From IMG/VR virus record IMGVR_UViG_3300020472_000007, positions 1-35,875 of that record: a DNA stretch of 35,875 bases; one strand, written 5' to 3'. Under the pieces are notes generated by a model. That model was given only the letters and a program-made list of their open reading frames with translations. It was not told where the DNA came from and ran no database searches. Below are positions 20,125-35,875 of this stretch, piece by piece. The DNA comes from a virus. Position 1 is the first letter of the stretch; every line of letters starts with the position of its first letter. Position numbers and translations under genes: made by a program.

Positions 20125-20273
20125 ACTTTTGCTTTCTCATAAGTGGCTCTCAATCCTTTAGGAACTTTAAACTTTCTCATTCTCTCATCGGTACAGGATA
20201 TAAAGAATTGTCTTTTTAAAACACAATCCGGAGCCCAAACTTTTACAAGCCAAATGATTTTTTTATCAATCAT
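20121..20273 (-). CDS. Small basic protein, 50 aa, between terminase and gp13-like gene
   Basis: The ATG overlaps the terminase stop as ATGA, and the stop overlaps the GTG of the next gene. The peptide begins MIDKKIIWLVKVWAPDCVLKR and is rich in Lys, Arg and aromatic residues; it has two Cys. No family was recognised. Double coupling to both neighbours and the absence of other coding potential in this gap support it. Confidence 0.65.
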   Translation of the reverse strand: MIDKKIIWLVKVWAPDCVLKRQFFISCTDERMRKFKVPKGLRATYEKAKV

Positions 20274-21793
20274 CCGAATACATCAAAATCTAAAGGAGCT
20301 ACAGAAGGTTTCATTCGACTAGCAGCATTCCCTCTCGTTAATCTTCTATGCTCACCACCACCCAACATTAAATACATAAAAGCATCACCAATGTGTGAGT
20401 GATCATTTTTGTTTGGTTGATCTCTATATCTCTCTCCTCCAGAGATTTGAACTCTTCTATAATGATAACCACCAGCTAAAGATTTTCTTAATCGCTGACA
20501 TTTTCTATCAATTAATAATCCTGGCTTACCTAATATTAATCTATTCATTGGAGATGCACCGGCCTCTCTTCTAACTCTAAAATCATTTGTAGCAGTTGGT
20601 CTAGCAACAAGTCCAAGGGTTCTTAAATGATCGAATGCTGTAACTTCAAAAATTTCATCTCTCTTTTGTCCAGCCGGATCACCCCAGATAAAGACATCGA
20701 ATTTAGGAAATCGAGTTTCTAATTCTCCTTTTAACATTTGACCAAATCTTTCCAGGCCCATATCAAAAGTTACTAGCTCGTGTAAGATTACCCATCTACC
20801 ATTAGAATGTTTTTGTCCAAATACTGCTGCTGGAGTTAAACCAAAGTCCACTCCGACTTGAATAGGATATTGAATATCTGGTTCAATAAAATCTTCCACC
20901 ATTAAACTATCATCGTATTCTGATATAACCGGTTTTCCTTCTTGGACATAAGTATATTGAGCTTGAGCATAACATCTAATCCAATCTAAATTCTTTCCAA
21001 GTAATGTTTGTTCATAGTATCCTGTTGGTAAATTTTTTCTATTTTCTGTTTCTTCTTTTACCTTCCACCATTTTGCAGAACTTAAAACATAACCATTCGC
21101 CTCTGGATTTTCTGGCAGCTCACCTGGAGATACTTCTTCAACAGCACCAGGTTGTTTAAAAAATTTCCAAGCATACTTACCCTTCATTCTTTCTTTCTCT
21201 GCTAATCTATACCACCAATGGTCATCATCCATTGGGTTCGTATCCATTATAATTCCTCTCCAAGGTTTTGCTCCACCATCGGATAATGTTGGGTATCTTC
21301 CTACTCGGTGTGTTAATCCATCAATAACAGCTTTAGGTAACTCTCTAGCCTCATTCACCCAGGCTCCGGTTAATTCCATTGATAATAATTTTCTAACATC
21401 TTTAGGCTGATCAAGAGCTAGAAAAATAACTTCACAATCTATTCCAGGAGCTCCATCTCTTGCCGGTAATTTTATATGATGTGTTAAAGGAGGGCTCCAT
21501 CTAAAAGCTCCCCATATATTTTCTGGGAATAATTCTTGCCAGGTTTTAATCGTGGTTGTTCTTAATTCTGGATAAGAGTTTCTAACAACTACAAATCTTG
21601 AATATTTAATTCCATCTCTAGGAGATTGCTTTTGCTTAACTGCCTTCAACATTATTTCAGCAGCACAAGCATAAGATTTACCAGAGCCTACAGGGCCCAT
21701 TATTCCACGAACAAAACTTTTATCATTTAAGAAATTCCAAATCGTTGGTGAGGAAGAAAAATCTAAATTAAGATTTGTGATAGCATCACTCAT
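20270..21793 (-). CDS. terL: Terminase large subunit
   Basis: This 507-aa packaging motor has a Walker A GPVGSGKS at residues 33-40. Further features are an IIMDTNPMDDDHWWY coupling-type segment around residue 180, and RNase H-like nuclease motifs: VGVDFGLTPAAVFG (first Asp), FIWGDPAGQKRDE (second Asp) and NDHSHIGDAFMY (third Asp). All key acidic residues are visible. The enzyme cuts the concatemer and drives ATP-dependent DNA entry through the portal. The start overlaps the small lipoprotein stop (ATGA). The small subunit lies just upstream. Confidence 0.95.
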   Translation of the reverse strand: MSDAITNLNLDFSSSPTIWNFLNDKSFVRGIMGPVGSGKSYACAAEIMLKAVKQKQSPRDGIKYSRFVVVRNSYPELRTTTIKTWQELFPENIWGAFRWSPPLTHHIKLPARDGAPGIDCEVIFLALDQPKDVRKLLSMELTGAWVNEARELPKAVIDGLTHRVGRYPTLSDGGAKPWRGIIMDTNPMDDDHWWYRLAEKERMKGKYAWKFFKQPGAVEEVSPGELPENPEANGYVLSSAKWWKVKEETENRKNLPTGYYEQTLLGKNLDWIRCYAQAQYTYVQEGKPVISEYDDSLMVEDFIEPDIQYPIQVGVDFGLTPAAVFGQKHSNGRWVILHELVTFDMGLERFGQMLKGELETRFPKFDVFIWGDPAGQKRDEIFEVTAFDHLRTLGLVARPTATNDFRVRREAGASPMNRLILGKPGLLIDRKCQRLRKSLAGGYHYRRVQISGGERYRDQPNKNDHSHIGDAFMYLMLGGGEHRRLTRGNAASRMKPSVAPLDFDVFG

Positions 21794-22087: not shown

Positions 22088-22538
22088 TTATTTCCTCTGC
22101 GTTCACAATGACCGGCTCTTCTGGGCCCTTCATTACAATTCCAACTACAGATGGTTTATCTAATTCCTCTTGAGGATCTAATAAACCTGTAGCTTTCGCT
22201 AATACTCTTAAAACACCAACTTTATCGTGGAGCTCCACTTCGAGCTGTGGGCCCATCTTTGTCGGTGTTACTTTAATTTTTTTTATAGCTTTGATTGCCT
22301 GTGGTGAAATAGCTTTAGGATCCTTAATAGTTACTTTGCCATCTTCATCCCAGGACATAATGTCGTCAATATTCGCTTTGGCTATATCGATAAGCTCTTG
22401 AGCTACATTCTCTTTATTGTGCTCAATGATTTTGGATTTCTGTATCCTTCGTTGAACTACTCGAATACCACCAAAGCGATCTAATGGTGGTTTGACAATT
22501 CTTTTAGAATTTGATTTCGCCATCCCCACTTGTGTCAT
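22020..22538 (-). CDS. terS: Terminase small subunit
   Basis: The middle and C-terminal half of this 172-aa protein match the Terminase_2 pattern: KANIDDIMSWDEDGKVTIKD, then AIKKIKVTPTKMG, VELHDKVGVLRVLAKATGLL. The N terminus is basic with several Lys/Arg, suitable for DNA contact. It recognises the packaging site and hands DNA to the large subunit. The start overlaps the 91-aa gene; a second in-frame ATG (MAKSNSKR) five codons downstream is an alternative. The gene lies two short genes upstream of terL. Confidence 0.82.
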   Translation of the reverse strand: MTQVGMAKSNSKRIVKPPLDRFGGIRVVQRRIQKSKIIEHNKENVAQELIDIAKANIDDIMSWDEDGKVTIKDPKAISPQAIKAIKKIKVTPTKMGPQLEVELHDKVGVLRVLAKATGLLDPQEELDKPSVVGIVMKGPEEPVIVNAEEINEESTNTPGEGDNPGVDVKKSN

Positions 22539-22779
22539 CCTTTTTTGGTTCGTTATTAAACACTCTAAAGAAAGCTACTCCATCTCCTTTGTTATAGGAT
22601 TTGGTTTCATCTCTCTTATAGATTTTTATATCTTGAGCTCCAGAAACTTCTTTAGCCTCTTTGGTTTCTTTATCAAAGTCTTTCGCATCCCATAATTCTA
22701 TGAGATATTCGCCTTGAGGAATATTAATATCCTTAAAGACTTTAAAGTTTCGGTTACTCGCATTTGGGCCTTTTGCCAT
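22504..22779 (-). CDS. Conserved-looking small protein at the head of the packaging operon
   Basis: This 91-aa protein is the first gene after the sigma70-like promoter at 22817-22845, with an excellent AAGGAGG site five bases before the ATG. The sequence has two beta-rich parts (GEYLIELWDAKDFDKETKEA, QDIKIYKRDETKSYNKGD) and an acidic end. No known domain was recognised. Position suggests an early structural or regulatory product of the late unit. Confidence 0.65.
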   Translation of the reverse strand: MAKGPNASNRNFKVFKDINIPQGEYLIELWDAKDFDKETKEAKEVSGAQDIKIYKRDETKSYNKGDGVAFFRVFNNEPKKDDTSGDGEIKF

Positions 22780-22816
22780 ATTTCCTCCTTTTTTGTTTCA
22801 GATTTAAGGCAGTAAT

Positions 22817-22845
22817 ATTATAATCGATTTGAGAATTTATTGCAA
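22817..22845 (-). promoter_or_regulatory. Strong sigma70-like promoter for the packaging/structural operon
   Basis: On the minus strand TTGCAA (22840-22845) is followed by a 17-base spacer and a perfect TATAAT (22817-22822). Transcription would begin near 22809 and reach the 91-aa gene 30 bases on. It is the only obvious consensus -10 in the region and lies in a 197-base gene-free gap, so the main late promoter probably uses host sigma factor. Confidence 0.75.
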
Positions 22846-22856
22846 AAAAATTGTGA

Positions 22857-22901
22857 GATACCCCCCATATATATTTACGCACCCCTCCCCCAAAGGGTAT
22901 C
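22857..22901. repeat. GATACCC/GGGTATC inverted repeat with G-rich loop
   Basis: Perfect 7-base arms (22857-22863, 22895-22901) flank a 31-base segment. The minus strand holds three runs of four to six G with one A-T-rich interval. It is by far the most GC-clustered spot of an AT-rich gap just upstream of the promoter. It could be an activator site, a terminator for the replication genes, or an origin/packaging element. Confidence 0.6.
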
Positions 22902-22976
22902 GAATTTTCAGAAATCAAGGTTATTCGCAATGTTGCCACAGTTATAAAACGCAATCGAACCTTTGGGATTTATAAA

Positions 22977-23846
22977 TTAATATCTCATCTTCCACTTTTT
23001 AGATAACTTCTTAACCATAGCCTGGGCCTCTTCTTGCTTATTCCTGGGCTTACTTACCTTATTTATTGCGTCTTTAAAGAAGTATATCGTGGCTGGTGCA
23101 TCCTTATTGTTATCCCTTCTCCATTCTATAATTTGTTTGATCTTGGCAATAGCTGTCGGAGGATGCAAACCCTGGTTTATCCAATCTTCTACAACTTTTA
23201 CTTGTTTCATATCATATTGTTTGTGCTGTCCGAATATTTCTTCGGTTAATTTTATAAACTGATTTAATATCTCTACTGCCTTTAAGTATATATTAGTACT
23301 GTTACCTATGTTGTTATGTAGTCGCTCTGAATGAATATCTACATATGCATTGGGTGCATATTTCTTCTTATCAGTTATTCCTTTAGATGAATATTCTTTC
23401 TTCCCCCCTTTAATAGGTTTCTCATCCTTTTTACTCTTCGGATATACCTCCACCTTCGGTTTCTCTTCAAAAGACCTATCAGTAACAGTAGCTGTAGCCC
23501 TCGCATCTTCTTCACTCACCTTCGTATCAAATACCATAAAATACTTATTCCCCTTTAGCCCAGGATGTTTCTTTGCATATCGTATATAATCCCATTCAAT
23601 TAGTTTTTTAATGTGCTTACTTATAGTGGATTGAGTGATATGTAAATCTCTAGCAATGGTACTTTGATTGGGCCAACAGACACCTTGCCTGGATGTATAA
23701 TTACCAAGTGCAGCCAGAACTCTGAAGATAGCTGGATGCTTTTTAAATCGAATATCTATTACAGCTCGTTGAGGCAAAACACAAAAATGTCCTGGAGTTT
23801 TACCTTTACCATAATGAACTTTACTTTTCTGTTTTTCTTCCGGCAT
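22977..23846 (-). CDS. Winged-helix replication-type protein
   Basis: Residues about 35-100 of this 289-aa protein form a helix-turn-helix/winged-helix domain: FRVLAALGNYTSRQGVCWPN, QSTIARDLHITQSTISKHIKKLIEWDYI, typical of the HTH_36 class in phage replication initiators. A charged linker (about 125-185) leads to a helical C-terminal domain with IWxR-type residues that might bind a partner such as host helicase or its loader. It overlaps the DnaA-like gene by 26 bases. An alternative view is a transcription regulator of the late genes. The initiator role is inferred from architecture and neighbour. Confidence 0.65.
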   Translation of the reverse strand: MPEEKQKSKVHYGKGKTPGHFCVLPQRAVIDIRFKKHPAIFRVLAALGNYTSRQGVCWPNQSTIARDLHITQSTISKHIKKLIEWDYIRYAKKHPGLKGNKYFMVFDTKVSEEDARATATVTDRSFEEKPKVEVYPKSKKDEKPIKGGKKEYSSKGITDKKKYAPNAYVDIHSERLHNNIGNSTNIYLKAVEILNQFIKLTEEIFGQHKQYDMKQVKVVEDWINQGLHPPTAIAKIKQIIEWRRDNNKDAPATIYFFKDAINKVSKPRNKQEEAQAMVKKLSKKWKMRY

Positions 23847-24345
23847 TCTTATTCAGTTTCATTTTTAATTCCTCATAATCAGCCCAAAGCTCTAATCCCA
23901 AATCCGATTGTAAAGACCAATGTTTAGATCTCTTATCTTTTAATTTCTCGTGGTATAAAACTGTTGTGTGATCCTTATGTACGCAGCTCCTTCCAATATG
24001 GGCCTTGCTATGTTGAGTTAGATCCAGGCATAAGTTTATATACAATGATCTGGGCCTTACAAGCTCGGCAAATCTACTTTTAGAAGTTAATTGATCTGGA
24101 GTTATCTGGTACTTAAAACACACAGCCTCCAATATATCTCGCAGCCATATCCTTGGTTCCTTATTATATTTAGGCTTATACTTGAGCTTGGATCGTAACA
24201 ATTCCAATTCCTCCTGGAGCTTTTCAATTCGATGCTCCATATTAAATACTTTATTCTGGAGTGTTTTTTGATCTCTTTCCTTCTTCTCTTTTTCAGTTAC
24301 CGGAGCTTTCATTACTTTGTATGGTCGAGCATCTACATATGTCAT
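23821..24345 (-). CDS. Stand-alone DnaA domain IV (origin-box binding) protein
   Basis: This 174-aa protein has an N-terminal coiled coil (about residues 18-56) and then a clear DnaA C-terminal DNA-binding domain at about 66-140. Visible signature parts are ILEAVCFKYQITPDQLTSKSR, VRPRS (96-100), a hydrophobic helix with LDLT, and AHIGRSCVHKDHTTVLYH (115-132), in which DHTTV is the box-binding motif. There is no AAA+ ATPase domain, so it cannot melt DNA by itself. Lys124 replaces the usual Arg before DHTT. It may redirect host DnaA or mark a phage origin. A transcription-repressor role is another option. Confidence 0.85.
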   Translation of the reverse strand: MTYVDARPYKVMKAPVTEKEKKERDQKTLQNKVFNMEHRIEKLQEELELLRSKLKYKPKYNKEPRIWLRDILEAVCFKYQITPDQLTSKSRFAELVRPRSLYINLCLDLTQHSKAHIGRSCVHKDHTTVLYHEKLKDKRSKHWSLQSDLGLELWADYEELKMKLNKNAGRKTEK

Positions 24346-24794
24346 TTTTTAGGATCCTTTTTAAAATCAACTACATTACCTGGTTTCTTTTTCTTTTTCT
24401 TATTCCATTCATCCCAGGCTTTCCGGCCCACAATTTCTCTTACATCTTTTTCACTTAACTCTTTTAACATCTCATCAATCTTCCAATTCGGCCTTCTACC
24501 AAATCTAATAGGAGTTTTAGATAAATTTATACTTTCATCTATTAACCATTGAGGCCAGGTTGATTTCTCTTTCTTCGGTTGTGTTTTTTTCTGTTGATGT
24601 TCTTCTACCAACTTGATTAGATAGTTGATATAGTTTTGAGCTTTTTTTAAATCGTTTAAGCCTCCCTTGAGCCTCCACCTTGATATGTACTTCACAATGT
24701 TGCCTTCATTGTAGCCCAGGTTGTTTTTAGTTATATAATCTCTTGGCTGTATTGCTAATTGATTATAATGCTTTGGATCTATTGGATCTGACAT
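24342..24794 (-). CDS. DUF3310-like protein
   Basis: The first 65 residues of this 150-aa protein match the DUF3310 pattern: HYN, IQPRDYITKNNLGYNEGNIVKYISRW, KGGLNDLKKAQNYINYLIKL. The rest is a lysine-rich extension with a WKIDEMLKELSEKDVREIVGRKAWDEWN segment. DUF3310 proteins are frequent in phages near nucleotide and replication genes; their biochemical role is not firmly known. The start overlaps the ribbon-helix-helix gene by 32 bases. Confidence 0.8.
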   Translation of the reverse strand: MSDPIDPKHYNQLAIQPRDYITKNNLGYNEGNIVKYISRWRLKGGLNDLKKAQNYINYLIKLVEEHQQKKTQPKKEKSTWPQWLIDESINLSKTPIRFGRRPNWKIDEMLKELSEKDVREIVGRKAWDEWNKKKKKKPGNVVDFKKDPKK

Positions 24795-24963
24795 TGTTAT
24801 CTCCTTTTTTAATTTGATAGTGAGGTTTTGAATTTAGCACCAATTCTACAGCATCTGTTATAAATTTAACCATAGATACTCGGTGCTTTTTAGCCTCTTT
24901 TTGGAGCTTTCCCTTCAATTTAGTGGAAATCTTCAGATAAATAGGTGTTAATTGAGGTTGCAT
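24763..24963 (-). CDS. Ribbon-helix-helix transcription regulator
   Basis: Residues 8-45 of this 66-aa protein have the CopG/Arc layout: a short polar strand (PIYLKISTKL) followed by LKGKLQKEAKKHRVSMVKFITDAVELVL. This fold binds operators as dimers through the strand. The gene is the first of the leftward unit, 30 bases from the divergent promoter region, so it probably autoregulates and controls the rightward genes. A ribosome site of AAGGA type lies before its ATG. Confidence 0.8.
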   Translation of the reverse strand: MQPQLTPIYLKISTKLKGKLQKEAKKHRVSMVKFITDAVELVLNSKPHYQIKKGDNNVRSNRSKAL

Positions 24964-24991
24964 TTTTTTTCCTTTTTTTTAATTTAATGTA

Positions 24992-25020
24992 TTGACTTGT
25001 ATATATTCAATATATATATC
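24992..25020 (+). promoter_or_regulatory. Predicted rightward early promoter
   Basis: TTGACT at 24992-24997 is a five-of-six -35 box. With a 17-base spacer the -10 would be TATATC (25015-25020), a partial match inside an AT run. Transcription would reach the ATG at 25074 after a leader containing a strong ribosome site. It overlaps the leftward promoter, so the two may be mutually exclusive. Confidence 0.5.
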
Positions 25021-25026
25021 TATCAA
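24998..25026 (-). promoter_or_regulatory. Predicted leftward promoter for the regulator/replication unit
   Basis: On the minus strand TTGATA (25021-25026) lies 17 bases from TATACA (24998-25003). Transcription would start just before the ribbon-helix-helix gene. The promoter shares nearly all its bases with the rightward one. Confidence 0.5.
25000..25016. promoter_or_regulatory. 17-bp palindrome, candidate operator
   Basis: TATATATT-C-AATATATA is a perfect inverted repeat around one central base and lies inside both overlapping promoters. Its place suggests the binding site of the ribbon-helix-helix or XRE regulator. The simple AT sequence makes a chance palindrome possible. Confidence 0.4.
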
Positions 25027-25073
25027 TATGAACAATATAAGACCAACAACAAGAAATAACAAAGGGAGGAAAA

Positions 25074-25797: not shown

Positions 25798-26448
25798 ATG
25801 AAATATGTAGCTTACTATAGAGTATCAACTAAAGACCAAGGCAAAGATGGTTATGGTATCCAGGATCAAGAGAAGGTTGTTGAAAGATATGTTGGTAACA
25901 ATGAATTGATTGCATCTTTTAAAGAAACTGAAAGTGGATCTAAAAGTGATAGACCGGAACTGTTAAAGGCCCTGGCATTATGTAAAAAAGAAAATGCAAC
26001 ATTAGTTATAGCAAGATTAGATAGACTTGCTCGTAACTTATACTTTGTTGCTAAATTACAAAACAGTAAGATTGATTTTGTTTGTTGCGATATACCAGAT
26101 GCTAACAAATTTACTATTCAATTACTTGCTGCTGTAGCTGAACAGTATTTAGATACATTAAGAAAAAATACTAAAGCTGCCCTGGCTATTGCTAAAAAGA
26201 ATGGAGTGCAATTAGGCAATCCAAAAAATCTTAAACAAGCAAGTATTAAAGGTAACAAAGTTAAACAACAACAAGCAGATCAATTCGCAATTAAGATTAA
26301 TGAAATTATTAAAAGTATCAGAGCTGCTGGATTAAATACACTCCAGGAAATTTCTGTTGCTTTAAATAATAGAGGTATCAAAACTTATAATGATGGAGTT
26401 TGGTATCCTACAACAGTAAAAAACATCATAGAAAGAGTAGGTGCGTAA
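25798..26448 (+). CDS. Small serine recombinase (resolvase/invertase type)
   Basis: This 216-aa protein has a resolvase catalytic domain at residues 1-135: YYRVSTKDQ with the nucleophile Ser10, GSKSDRPELLKAL, ARLDRLARN (Arg73, Asp75, Arg76, Arg79), and an E-helix with QLLAAVAEQYLDTLRKNTKAAL. The C-terminal part (LNTLQEISVALNNRGIKT...WYPTTVKNII) is a helix-turn-helix like that of Recombinase-domain proteins. It is much shorter than large serine integrases and nearer to resolvases and invertases (about 185-200 aa). Possible roles are integration, dimer resolution or fibre switching. No att site was identified. Confidence 0.9.
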   Translation: MKYVAYYRVSTKDQGKDGYGIQDQEKVVERYVGNNELIASFKETESGSKSDRPELLKALALCKKENATLVIARLDRLARNLYFVAKLQNSKIDFVCCDIPDANKFTIQLLAAVAEQYLDTLRKNTKAALAIAKKNGVQLGNPKNLKQASIKGNKVKQQQADQFAIKINEIIKSIRAAGLNTLQEISVALNNRGIKTYNDGVWYPTTVKNIIERVGA

Positions 26449-29686: not shown

Positions 29687-29966
29687 ACACGATCCAACTA
29701 CAGGCTTACCTTCAAATGACAATTCAAGTTATGAAGAGTTGTTACAAATGTGGAGAGAAGAAAAACAAAAAAGAAAAACTGCTGAAGATACTGCTAATAG
29801 ATTGGTTGAAGAGAATAATAACTATGAAACAATTAGTAAATCTCATAAAGAAATAAATGGAAAGTTACAGACAAGAGTAAATGAATTAGAAGAAGATAAT
29901 AAAAAACTATCAAAACAAATAGAAGATAAAGATAAACATATAAAACAATTAGTAGATGTAATGTGA
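29676..29966 (+). CDS. Coiled-coil protein, 96 aa
   Basis: After a short polar start, residues about 20-96 form an uninterrupted charged coiled coil (EEKQKRKTAEDTANRLVEEN, LQTRVNELEEDNKKLSKQIE). It resembles the 78-aa coiled-coil protein at 30835-31071 in kind, not in sequence. It precedes the glucosaminidase with a four-base overlap. The function is unknown; a scaffold or lysis accessory role is possible. Confidence 0.6.
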   Translation: MGIKHDPTTGLPSNDNSSYEELLQMWREEKQKRKTAEDTANRLVEENNNYETISKSHKEINGKLQTRVNELEEDNKKLSKQIEDKDKHIKQLVDVM

Positions 29967-30466
29967 AACATTTATGTGCAACTCTTCTACTATTATGTAG
30001 TGGTTTAAATCCTCAATTAGATGGAAGAGATTTATTTATAGAGCAAATAACAAATTGTGCATTACAATATAATGCAACAACTATTTCTTCAGAGAGAGTA
30101 CCAATTCATTTAGTAGTAGCTGTTGCAGCCCACGAAAGTGCTTGGGGTAAAAGTAGATTTGCTCTTGAAGGTAATAATTATTTTGGAATTAAAACTCTAT
30201 CCCAAGATCCAGATAAATATATGGTTCCTAAAAATAATAAGAAGGTTAAGCTACAGAAGTATGAAACTATGTGTAGCTCTGTTGATGGTTTTATGGAGTT
30301 GGTTACTATCTCTCCCAGGTATAAAGAATTTCAAGAGGAACTAGAAAAACAATGGCTAGTTGATAAGGTTGAATACAATAAGCTACTGTCCTCGATGTTC
30401 AGATTTTCAACTGATAAGGAATGGAAGGTAAAAGTCCTGGATATTATAGGCCAAATAAAGAAATAG
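29963..30466 (+). CDS. Glucosaminidase-type peptidoglycan hydrolase with signal-like N terminus
   Basis: This 167-aa protein has a GTG start. Residues 1-18 are hydrophobic (MKHLCATLLLLCSG), a likely export signal or signal anchor. Residues 45-160 match the Bax/FlgJ-like glucosaminidase domain: VVAVAAHESAWGKSRFALEGNN with catalytic Glu58, then YFGIKT and later SVDGFMELV and YKEF. It would cut the glycan strand of peptidoglycan in the periplasm. It is the last gene of the early rightward unit, separate from the amidase and holin. Confidence 0.82.
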   Translation: MKHLCATLLLLCSGLNPQLDGRDLFIEQITNCALQYNATTISSERVPIHLVVAVAAHESAWGKSRFALEGNNYFGIKTLSQDPDKYMVPKNNKKVKLQKYETMCSSVDGFMELVTISPRYKEFQEELEKQWLVDKVEYNKLLSSMFRFSTDKEWKVKVLDIIGQIKK

Positions 30467-34841: not shown

Positions 34842-35723
34842 TTAAACATATTTATAACCCAATACTGTATAAAAACCATTTTTTATATTAGATGAATTAT
34901 TACCAATTAACGACCACCCTGTTTTAGTTGAAGTTTCTGAAGTCCAACCATATGCCTCATAATGAGCATAATAAGGTGGAGAACTTTCATCGTGGTTTAA
35001 CCATTGGTATAACGCACTTTGTCTGCCATTAGCATCTGGTTTATAAATTTCCATCTTAAGATTTGGATTTATAAAACCAGAATTAAATCCCCAACCATTA
35101 GCAGTAAGTTGTGCTAAACTTCCATTTACATCTTTCCATATAGCAAGATTAGAATTGCTGTGATTTGTTTGAGAGTGAGTGTACCATCCTATAAAACCAT
35201 AATCTTGACTTGAAATATCTCCACTCGCATTTCTAAATCTTATCCACATACCTTGATTAGCACTCATTTGATACTGCATAAAAACTTCCATTTTATAATA
35301 ATTGTTTGTAGCCCAATTTGTAGTTGTACTAATTGTATTTACTCCTGTGCTATCAAGTGATGTATGACTTACAAGATCAACTTGAGATGATAATGCCGAC
35401 CAAGATACTGCACCAGCAGAAGTATTTTTTAAATACATATCAGATGCTGGTTTTGCTAGTCTTTGTAATCCACTTCCATCTCTGTAAAGTATATCACCTT
35501 GAGTTGTTATTGTTGTTCCAACATCAGTACCATCTGTACCTTTAGCAGCAAGTTTAGTCCAATAAGCAGTTTGAGATGTTGCTTGTGTACCAGCTCCGTG
35601 TGCTTGAATACAAATAAAACTTTCGTTTCCGTGAGTTACAATATCATCAACAACATAAGCAGTTGATCCACTATATGCTCCACGAAATACAGGTTTAATT
35701 CTTCCGAGATTTACTGTTGCCAT
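34842..35723 (-). CDS. Tail fibre / adhesin, copy 2 of a duplicated pair
   Basis: This 293-aa protein has the same N-terminal plan as copy 1 (VNLGRIKPVFRGAYSGSTAY, VVDDIV, then TTQGDILYRDGSGLQRLAK), but the C-terminal 170 residues differ completely and contain many Trp, Tyr, Ser and Asn (for example YKMEVFMQYQM, WLNHDESSPPYYAHYEAYGW). The last stretch ends GFYTVLGYKYV. It probably offers a different receptor tip on the same base. The start is close behind the stop of the junction-spanning small gene. Confidence 0.8.
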   Translation of the reverse strand: MATVNLGRIKPVFRGAYSGSTAYVVDDIVTHGNESFICIQAHGAGTQATSQTAYWTKLAAKGTDGTDVGTTITTQGDILYRDGSGLQRLAKPASDMYLKNTSAGAVSWSALSSQVDLVSHTSLDSTGVNTISTTTNWATNNYYKMEVFMQYQMSANQGMWIRFRNASGDISSQDYGFIGWYTHSQTNHSNSNLAIWKDVNGSLAQLTANGWGFNSGFINPNLKMEIYKPDANGRQSALYQWLNHDESSPPYYAHYEAYGWTSETSTKTGWSLIGNNSSNIKNGFYTVLGYKYV

Positions 35724-35727
35724 AATA

Positions 35728-35875
35728 TTACAAGACTATAGTGTCTGCCTCCTCTTCGGTTAATGGTTCACCAGCAATAAGTTTAGCTTTAGCACTATCT
35801 TTAAGAGTATCTTTTTCTGCTTTAGCATTATCTCTTGCAGTTTTATCAGTAGCACTAGTTTCAATATCTATTGCC
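35728..35875 (-). CDS. Small tail-fibre-associated protein, 3' part (junction-spanning copy 1)
   Basis: This is the C-terminal part of the 69-aa protein whose start is at 111-113. TAA is at 35728-35730. It contains KAKLIAGEPLTEEEADTIVL, shared nearly exactly with the 70-aa copy at 34609-34821. Bases 35825-35875 are the repeated overlap, so the gene is whole on the circle. Confidence 0.85.
   Translation of the reverse strand, partial: AIDIETSATDKTARDNAKAEKDTLKDSAKAKLIAGEPLTEEEADTIVL
35825..35875. repeat. Terminal direct repeat, right copy
   Basis: Identical to bases 1-51; see the left copy. Both copies lie inside the small fibre-associated gene, and the join restores one continuous frame. 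Confidence 0.95.

Follow-up and report, generated by a model that had tools for sequence, protein, structure and literature searches.

Stand-alone DnaA domains have already been annotated in pelagiphages of the HTVC010P type, namely HTVC010P, HTVC204P, Lederberg, and Skadi (PMC6811365), and the GenBank labels of these DnaA_C proteins read "DNA replication initiation" or "DnaA-like". In the literature found, every stand-alone domain-IV protein whose function has been tested acts as a transcription activator (PMC9632790, PMC11150451, PMC9638019), and a "DnaA" label on such a phage gene is therefore no evidence of replication. Caulobacter GafY, first named HdaB and known to affect replication when overexpressed, is a DnaA-domain-IV protein that contacts domain 3-4 of RpoD and, together with IHF and sigma70, activates the GTA cluster (PMC9632790, PMC11150451). 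Rhodobacter GafA possesses a DnaA-like N-terminal domain (PMC9638019, PMC6363796), and its binding site lies 75-125 bases upstream of terS (PMC9638019). As for phages devoid of a domain-IV gene, the authors describing the Methylophilales phage MEP301 concluded that this phage relies on host replication (PMC8024684).

The window analysed here, a stretch of viral DNA of 35,875 nucleotides, encodes a domain-IV protein of 174 aa and a winged-helix protein of 289 aa, both at the positions given by an earlier sequence-only reading. The two genes belong to a leftward operon with the following features:

23821..24345, minus strand: stand-alone DnaA domain IV protein, 174 aa, with an N-terminal helix (Pfam, PDB search, and predicted structure)
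23950..24138, minus strand: Bac_DnaA_C domain, aa 70-132 (Pfam and alignment to E. coli DnaA)
24184..24294, minus strand: predicted long N-terminal helix, aa 18-54, a probable coiled coil (structure prediction and sequence)
22977..23846, minus strand: winged-helix protein, 289 aa, of the O-like or DnaD-like replication initiation type, encoded by the core gene of this phage family (Pfam, PHROG, hhalign, and loci survey)
23821..23846, minus strand: overlap of the two ORFs, 26 nt, with probable translational coupling
24342..24794, minus strand: gene for a DUF3310 protein, lying upstream in the operon (Pfam and PHROG)
24763..24963, minus strand: Arc-like ribbon-helix-helix (RHH) protein, 66 aa, first gene of the operon (PHROG)

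The DnaA box-binding signature recognised in the earlier reading was borne out, with VRPRS at aa 96-100, DHTTV at aa 125-129, and a Bac_DnaA_C match at E=1e-16 (61 bits against a Pfam cut-off of 31.5). The top PDB sequence match was domain IV of E. coli DnaA (1j1v, E=4e-7), and in the alignment to this structure (offset 308) R91, D125, H126, T127, and T128 correspond to E. coli R399, D433, H434, T435, and T436, while K124 stands for R432 and A115 for P423. The structure check that had been proposed gave the same answer: the three best PDB structure matches of the AlphaFold model (mean pLDDT 69, moderate confidence) were all DnaA domain IV, with Z scores of 6.6, 6.5, and 6.2 followed by 4.4 for the next row. 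No AAA+ domain was matched by Pfam, as had been claimed, the sole matching region being aa 70-132; the protein has neither the AAA+ domain III nor the domain I that mark bacterial DnaA, and it shows the Bac_DnaA_C score above cut-off without AAA+ that marks the stand-alone domain-IV proteins of the pelagiphage type. The N-terminal coiled coil is probable, given the predicted helix with a/d residues M36, I40, L43, L47, L50, and L54 in perfect heptad spacing. Thus, the protein is confirmed as a true DnaA domain IV plus a coiled-coil-like helix, with no ATPase. The lysine before DHTT, which had been suggested to alter box preference, is real (K124) but constitutes no special signature, as K, R, or Q occupies this position among relatives. 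The contact motif itself is lost in some of them, reading D-N-S-T in L305 and H-H-S-T in L279. When the window was compared with the related contig L004 (L004:551-1078), the middle of the domain-IV gene was found to differ at synonymous and replacement sites, with near-identical gene ends and neighbouring gene, as if the DNA-binding domain had been swapped by segmental exchange.

Orthology with GafY was considered and is ruled out by motif, partner gene, and tree. A DUF6456 gene was present in 13 of 20 alphaproteobacterial genomes having a second domain-IV gene, each time within about 1 kb of the latter, and the six domain-IV proteins read next to a DUF6456 gene all carry D-R-[S/T]-T in place of the window's D-H-T-T. 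DUF6456/GafZ (PF20057) had no match in the window. In a domain tree, of which the row GafY_L235 is disregarded as a wrong ORF, the phage proteins (support 95/91) and GafY (100/99) are separate; this placement of the phage proteins, mostly with D-H-T-T, as a clade apart from the former HdaB is new here. The window protein is not GafY, yet it could act in a GafY-like manner. Four SAR11 genomes contained ordinary DnaA only, and the alphaproteobacterial loci L232, L233, and L234 hold short chromosomal domain-IV-only genes with D-H-T-[S/T], which are not of the GafY type.

The overlapping partner, previously described as a winged-helix replication protein, was likewise upheld as such. Its N-terminal winged helix is matched by HTH_36 (Pfam, E=4e-9), and its PHROG matches are nearly all replication initiation or O-like (phrog_428 at 3e-10 and phrog_391 at 5e-10), as expected of an O-like or DnaD-like protein; in the relative L049, phrog_1032 (replication initiation) spans residues 37-272 of 283 aa at E=5e-10. 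The C-terminal 110 aa searched alone gave no significant match and no known loader, and the structure model (pLDDT 56) supports nothing beyond a generic winged helix. The two genes probably form one coupled unit.

An exact direct repeat of 51 nt is shared by the two ends of the record (1-51 = 35825-35875), which therefore probably represents an entire phage genome (about 35.8 kb), circularly permuted or circular and opened inside the tail-fibre module. This probable completeness gives meaning to the missing replication enzymes: the PHROG and Pfam scans of all major ORFs over the whole record found no polymerase, primase, or helicase, in agreement with the earlier reading, nor any additional initiator or helicase loader of the P/DnaC type. 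Dependence of the phage on the host replisome is thereby supported. The gene set is podovirus-like (head, tail, terminase, and lysis), with a serine recombinase, a RecE-like exonuclease, and an Erf annealing protein also encoded (PHROG and Pfam). Flanking the record ends are two paralogous 293-aa tail-fibre proteins with 34% identity (132-1013 and 34842-35723), and the same genome holds an invertase-type serine recombinase (25798-26448). A glucosaminidase-type endolysin (29963-30466, plus strand) closes the rightward early operon, and a holin and an amidase belong to the leftward late operon. The packaging genes and their small neighbour, all downstream of the winged-helix gene, are as follows:

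20270..21793, minus strand: terminase large subunit (terL), 67.5% identical to that of phage MEP301
22020..22538, minus strand: terminase small subunit (terS) (Pfam and PHROG)
22504..22779, minus strand: protein of 91 aa whose acidic C-terminal tip, GDGEIKF, is SSB-like (sequence and position)

The 91-aa protein has almost no family match by sequence; its relatives end in similar tips (DDEIPF, DDEIKF, DDNVPF, and EDDLPF, for example in L020:2449-2796, L039:79-329, and L242:32075-32365), and its positional counterpart in MEP301 is annotated as an ssDNA-binding protein. By terminase, the nearest isolate is this OM43 phage MEP301, followed by Pelagibacter phage Hodr (46%), and structural proteins are held in common with the HTVC010P-type pelagiphages at about 25-42% identity.

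Across IMG/VR relatives, the gene order RHH, DUF3310, domain IV, winged helix, noncoding gap, SSB-tip protein, terS, and terL is kept even where identity has fallen to 46% for the domain-IV protein and 56% for the winged-helix protein. Domain IV is followed by the winged helix in 26 of the 29 contigs with the downstream motif described below, the other three having their start within or beyond the winged-helix gene, and no contig of the group that spans the locus lacks the pair; within the window's own group, the two genes overlap or nearly so. The pairing is more than chance. A wider survey took in 160 further terminase-anchored loci, of which the 89 extending more than 2.5 kb upstream of terL were counted. 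The winged-helix gene was present in 73/89 and the domain-IV gene in only 14/89; these 14 loci carry the two genes together, domain IV lying upstream in the same orientation (gap of -4 to 1359 nt), and in this sample domain IV is found only alongside the long form of the winged-helix protein (277 aa or more). Whole-record searches showed domain IV to be absent from 15 of 20 long records, several exceeding 32 kb. Given these counts, the long records, and MEP301, which has no domain-IV gene, the core role falls to the winged-helix gene, and domain IV is an optional module; that the former is the constant part and the latter optional yet always upstream on the same strand is new here.

Directly after the winged-helix gene lies a noncoding element, the strong conservation of which, also in phages without domain IV, is new here:

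22780..22976, minus strand: conserved noncoding region separating the winged-helix gene from the late/packaging genes, 197 nt
22863..22883, minus strand: core motif GGTGCGTANNNNTATATGGGG, present in 29 viral contigs
22817..22846, minus strand: sigma70-like promoter TTTGCA-N18-TATAAT (alignment)

Within the element, GGTGCGTANNNNTATATGGGG is followed by CACA[AT]TTTTTTTGCA and the sigma70-like promoter, the latter being kept in 28/30 aligned sequences with a spacer of 17-18. Between the window and L020, the element is identical at 53/67 positions, against 47/93 just upstream and 15/37 just downstream, and third codon positions of the winged-helix gene at 138/276 (50%). Contig L039 begins 14 nt ahead of the motif, and nearly all other contigs run through it. 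The element is a candidate origin, late-promoter region, or packaging (cos) site. Its role as a target of the domain-IV protein was considered and is weakened by L246, L247, and L250, all without domain IV, which keep the core after the winged-helix gene (one mismatch, no promoter). L004 combines a diverged domain-IV allele with a window-type element; allele differences therefore do not track the element.

The sequence-only reading had suggested that host initiation is redirected to a phage origin, for which DnaA-box clusters and the GC skew were to be inspected. The whole-genome scan revealed no DnaA-box cluster in the window or in four pelagiphages, an absence first reported here, nor were boxes in surplus in any of these, and no 500-nt box cluster exceeded shuffles in the window, the four pelagiphages, or an Octadecabacter phage stretch. 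Sites matching TTATCCACA with at most one mismatch numbered 15 in the window against 12.7 expected and were unclustered, and strict boxes (TTATNCACA) numbered 3 against 2.2 in a codon-preserving null, which is no enrichment. Avoidance of boxes is not claimed either, as the depletion of relaxed boxes against dinucleotide shuffles (15 vs 32.4) became a weak deficit under the codon-preserving null (15 vs 23.9, P=0.02). No convincing iterons or tandem repeats were seen in or beside the winged-helix gene, no Rfam match was obtained, and the GC skew tracks gene direction and marks no origin. With neither box cluster, iteron, nor skew signal, redirection to a phage origin is left without cis-support. 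Domain IV as the redirector fares no better: its gene is dispensable within the family, since MEP301 and most related contigs do without it and keep the winged-helix gene.

The reading we favour, at a probability of about 45%, is that the unit represents a phage replication-initiation cassette in which domain IV assists, as an accessory DNA-binding protein, an initiator of the O/DnaD-like type. We infer each of its steps as follows. The winged-helix protein would be the core initiator that brings the host replisome to phage DNA, presumably by helicase recruitment, whereas the domain-IV protein would be an optional partner translated just before it from the same mRNA. The latter probably pairs via its coiled coil as a dimer, may read DnaA-box-like or relaxed sites with its kept contact residues, and may help to position or regulate the initiator through contact between both proteins, the likeliest site of action being the noncoding element directly downstream, were this to function as an origin. 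This reading is put forward because the equivalents of R399, D433, H434, T435, and T436 are kept, the matches of the winged-helix protein nearly all belong to replication initiation families, domain IV stands upstream on the same strand in 14/14 distant loci having it, no other initiator, helicase, or loader was found in the probably complete genome, and the element directly follows the winged-helix gene even where domain IV is absent and is better conserved (53/67) than third codon positions (50%). It is opposed by the absence of DnaA boxes or iterons marking an origin, by a C-terminal half of the winged-helix protein matching no known loader, by the HTVC010P-type arrangement, with domain IV kilobases from the O-like gene on the opposite strand, and by the activator function of the tested stand-alone proteins. 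A two-part initiator, wherein a stripped-down domain IV gained and lost as a module would be an add-on specificity factor for an O-type winged helix, recruiting or displacing host DnaA without an ATPase, is conceivable, albeit doubtful.

By analogy with GafY and its IHF-assisted activation of the GTA cluster, the domain-IV protein might instead bind upstream of the 22817-22846 promoter and switch on the operon of SSB-tip, terS, terL, and structural genes. The conserved promoter preceding the packaging genes, the GafA site upstream of terS, and the fact that GafYZ are likewise a neighbouring gene pair would all suit such a late activator, but the separate clades, the differing motif, the missing DUF6456/GafZ, and an element core that persists in phages without domain IV make it unlikely. 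The blocking of host origins, also raised in the sequence-only reading, may be entertained because the main base-contact residues are kept: a competitor would occupy oriC or DnaA-controlled promoters, so stopping host initiation or freeing replisome parts. With contact residues retained and the phage genome devoid of box clusters, the main box sites in the cell would be the host's, and a protein without AAA+ cannot open an origin itself; nevertheless, the constant company of a replication gene in this phage family suggests a joint role, and with the contact motif lost in L305 and L279 competition too appears improbable. Most doubtful of all is that the protein only represses or tunes its own operon, from RHH to winged helix, at the divergent promoter region 24964-25073. 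Autoregulation is common among small DNA-binding proteins that have dimerisation helices, and the divergent region is AT-rich, yet the RHH protein already suits this role and no conserved box-like site was seen there. The accessory-partner reading is thus favoured over all three.

Marine phages of this kind are abundant, lack replication enzymes, and have to capture the replisome of the host. With the constant part, a winged helix often accompanied by the conserved element, now separated from the optional domain IV, one short stretch of DNA and two small proteins stand out as targets for testing.

Compared with bacterial DnaA, the window protein shares the domain IV fold and contact residues, and lacks domains I-III and the ATPase. 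Lambda O and DnaD-type initiators have in common with the partner an N-terminal winged helix and the PHROG annotation "replication initiation O-like", whereas the window gene comes without iterons or a P/DnaC-type loader gene and with a C-terminal half that has no match. GafY and GafA similarly present a stand-alone or fused DnaA domain IV encoded beside a second regulator, and differ in their D-R-[S/T]-T motif, their DUF6456 partner in place of a winged helix, their separate clade, and their tested activator function. In the HTVC010P-type phages, the domain-IV gene is uncoupled and ends the rightward early operon after a nuclease and an annealing protein, and its product is 28-32% identical to the window protein with Q before DHTT; even so, it is a stand-alone domain IV with an N-terminal helical part and DHTT that falls into one clade with the window protein (95/91 in a domain tree from a short alignment), no phage polymerase is reported in these genomes, and HTVC204P has a DUF3310-type gene near its domain-IV gene. 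MEP301, in which neither a domain-IV gene nor the conserved element was found, shares TerL (67.5%), capsid (66%), an SSB-tip protein before terS, and the winged-helix homologue gp55, the homology of which to the window protein extends past the winged helix (hhalign 96.5%, E=8.5e-10).
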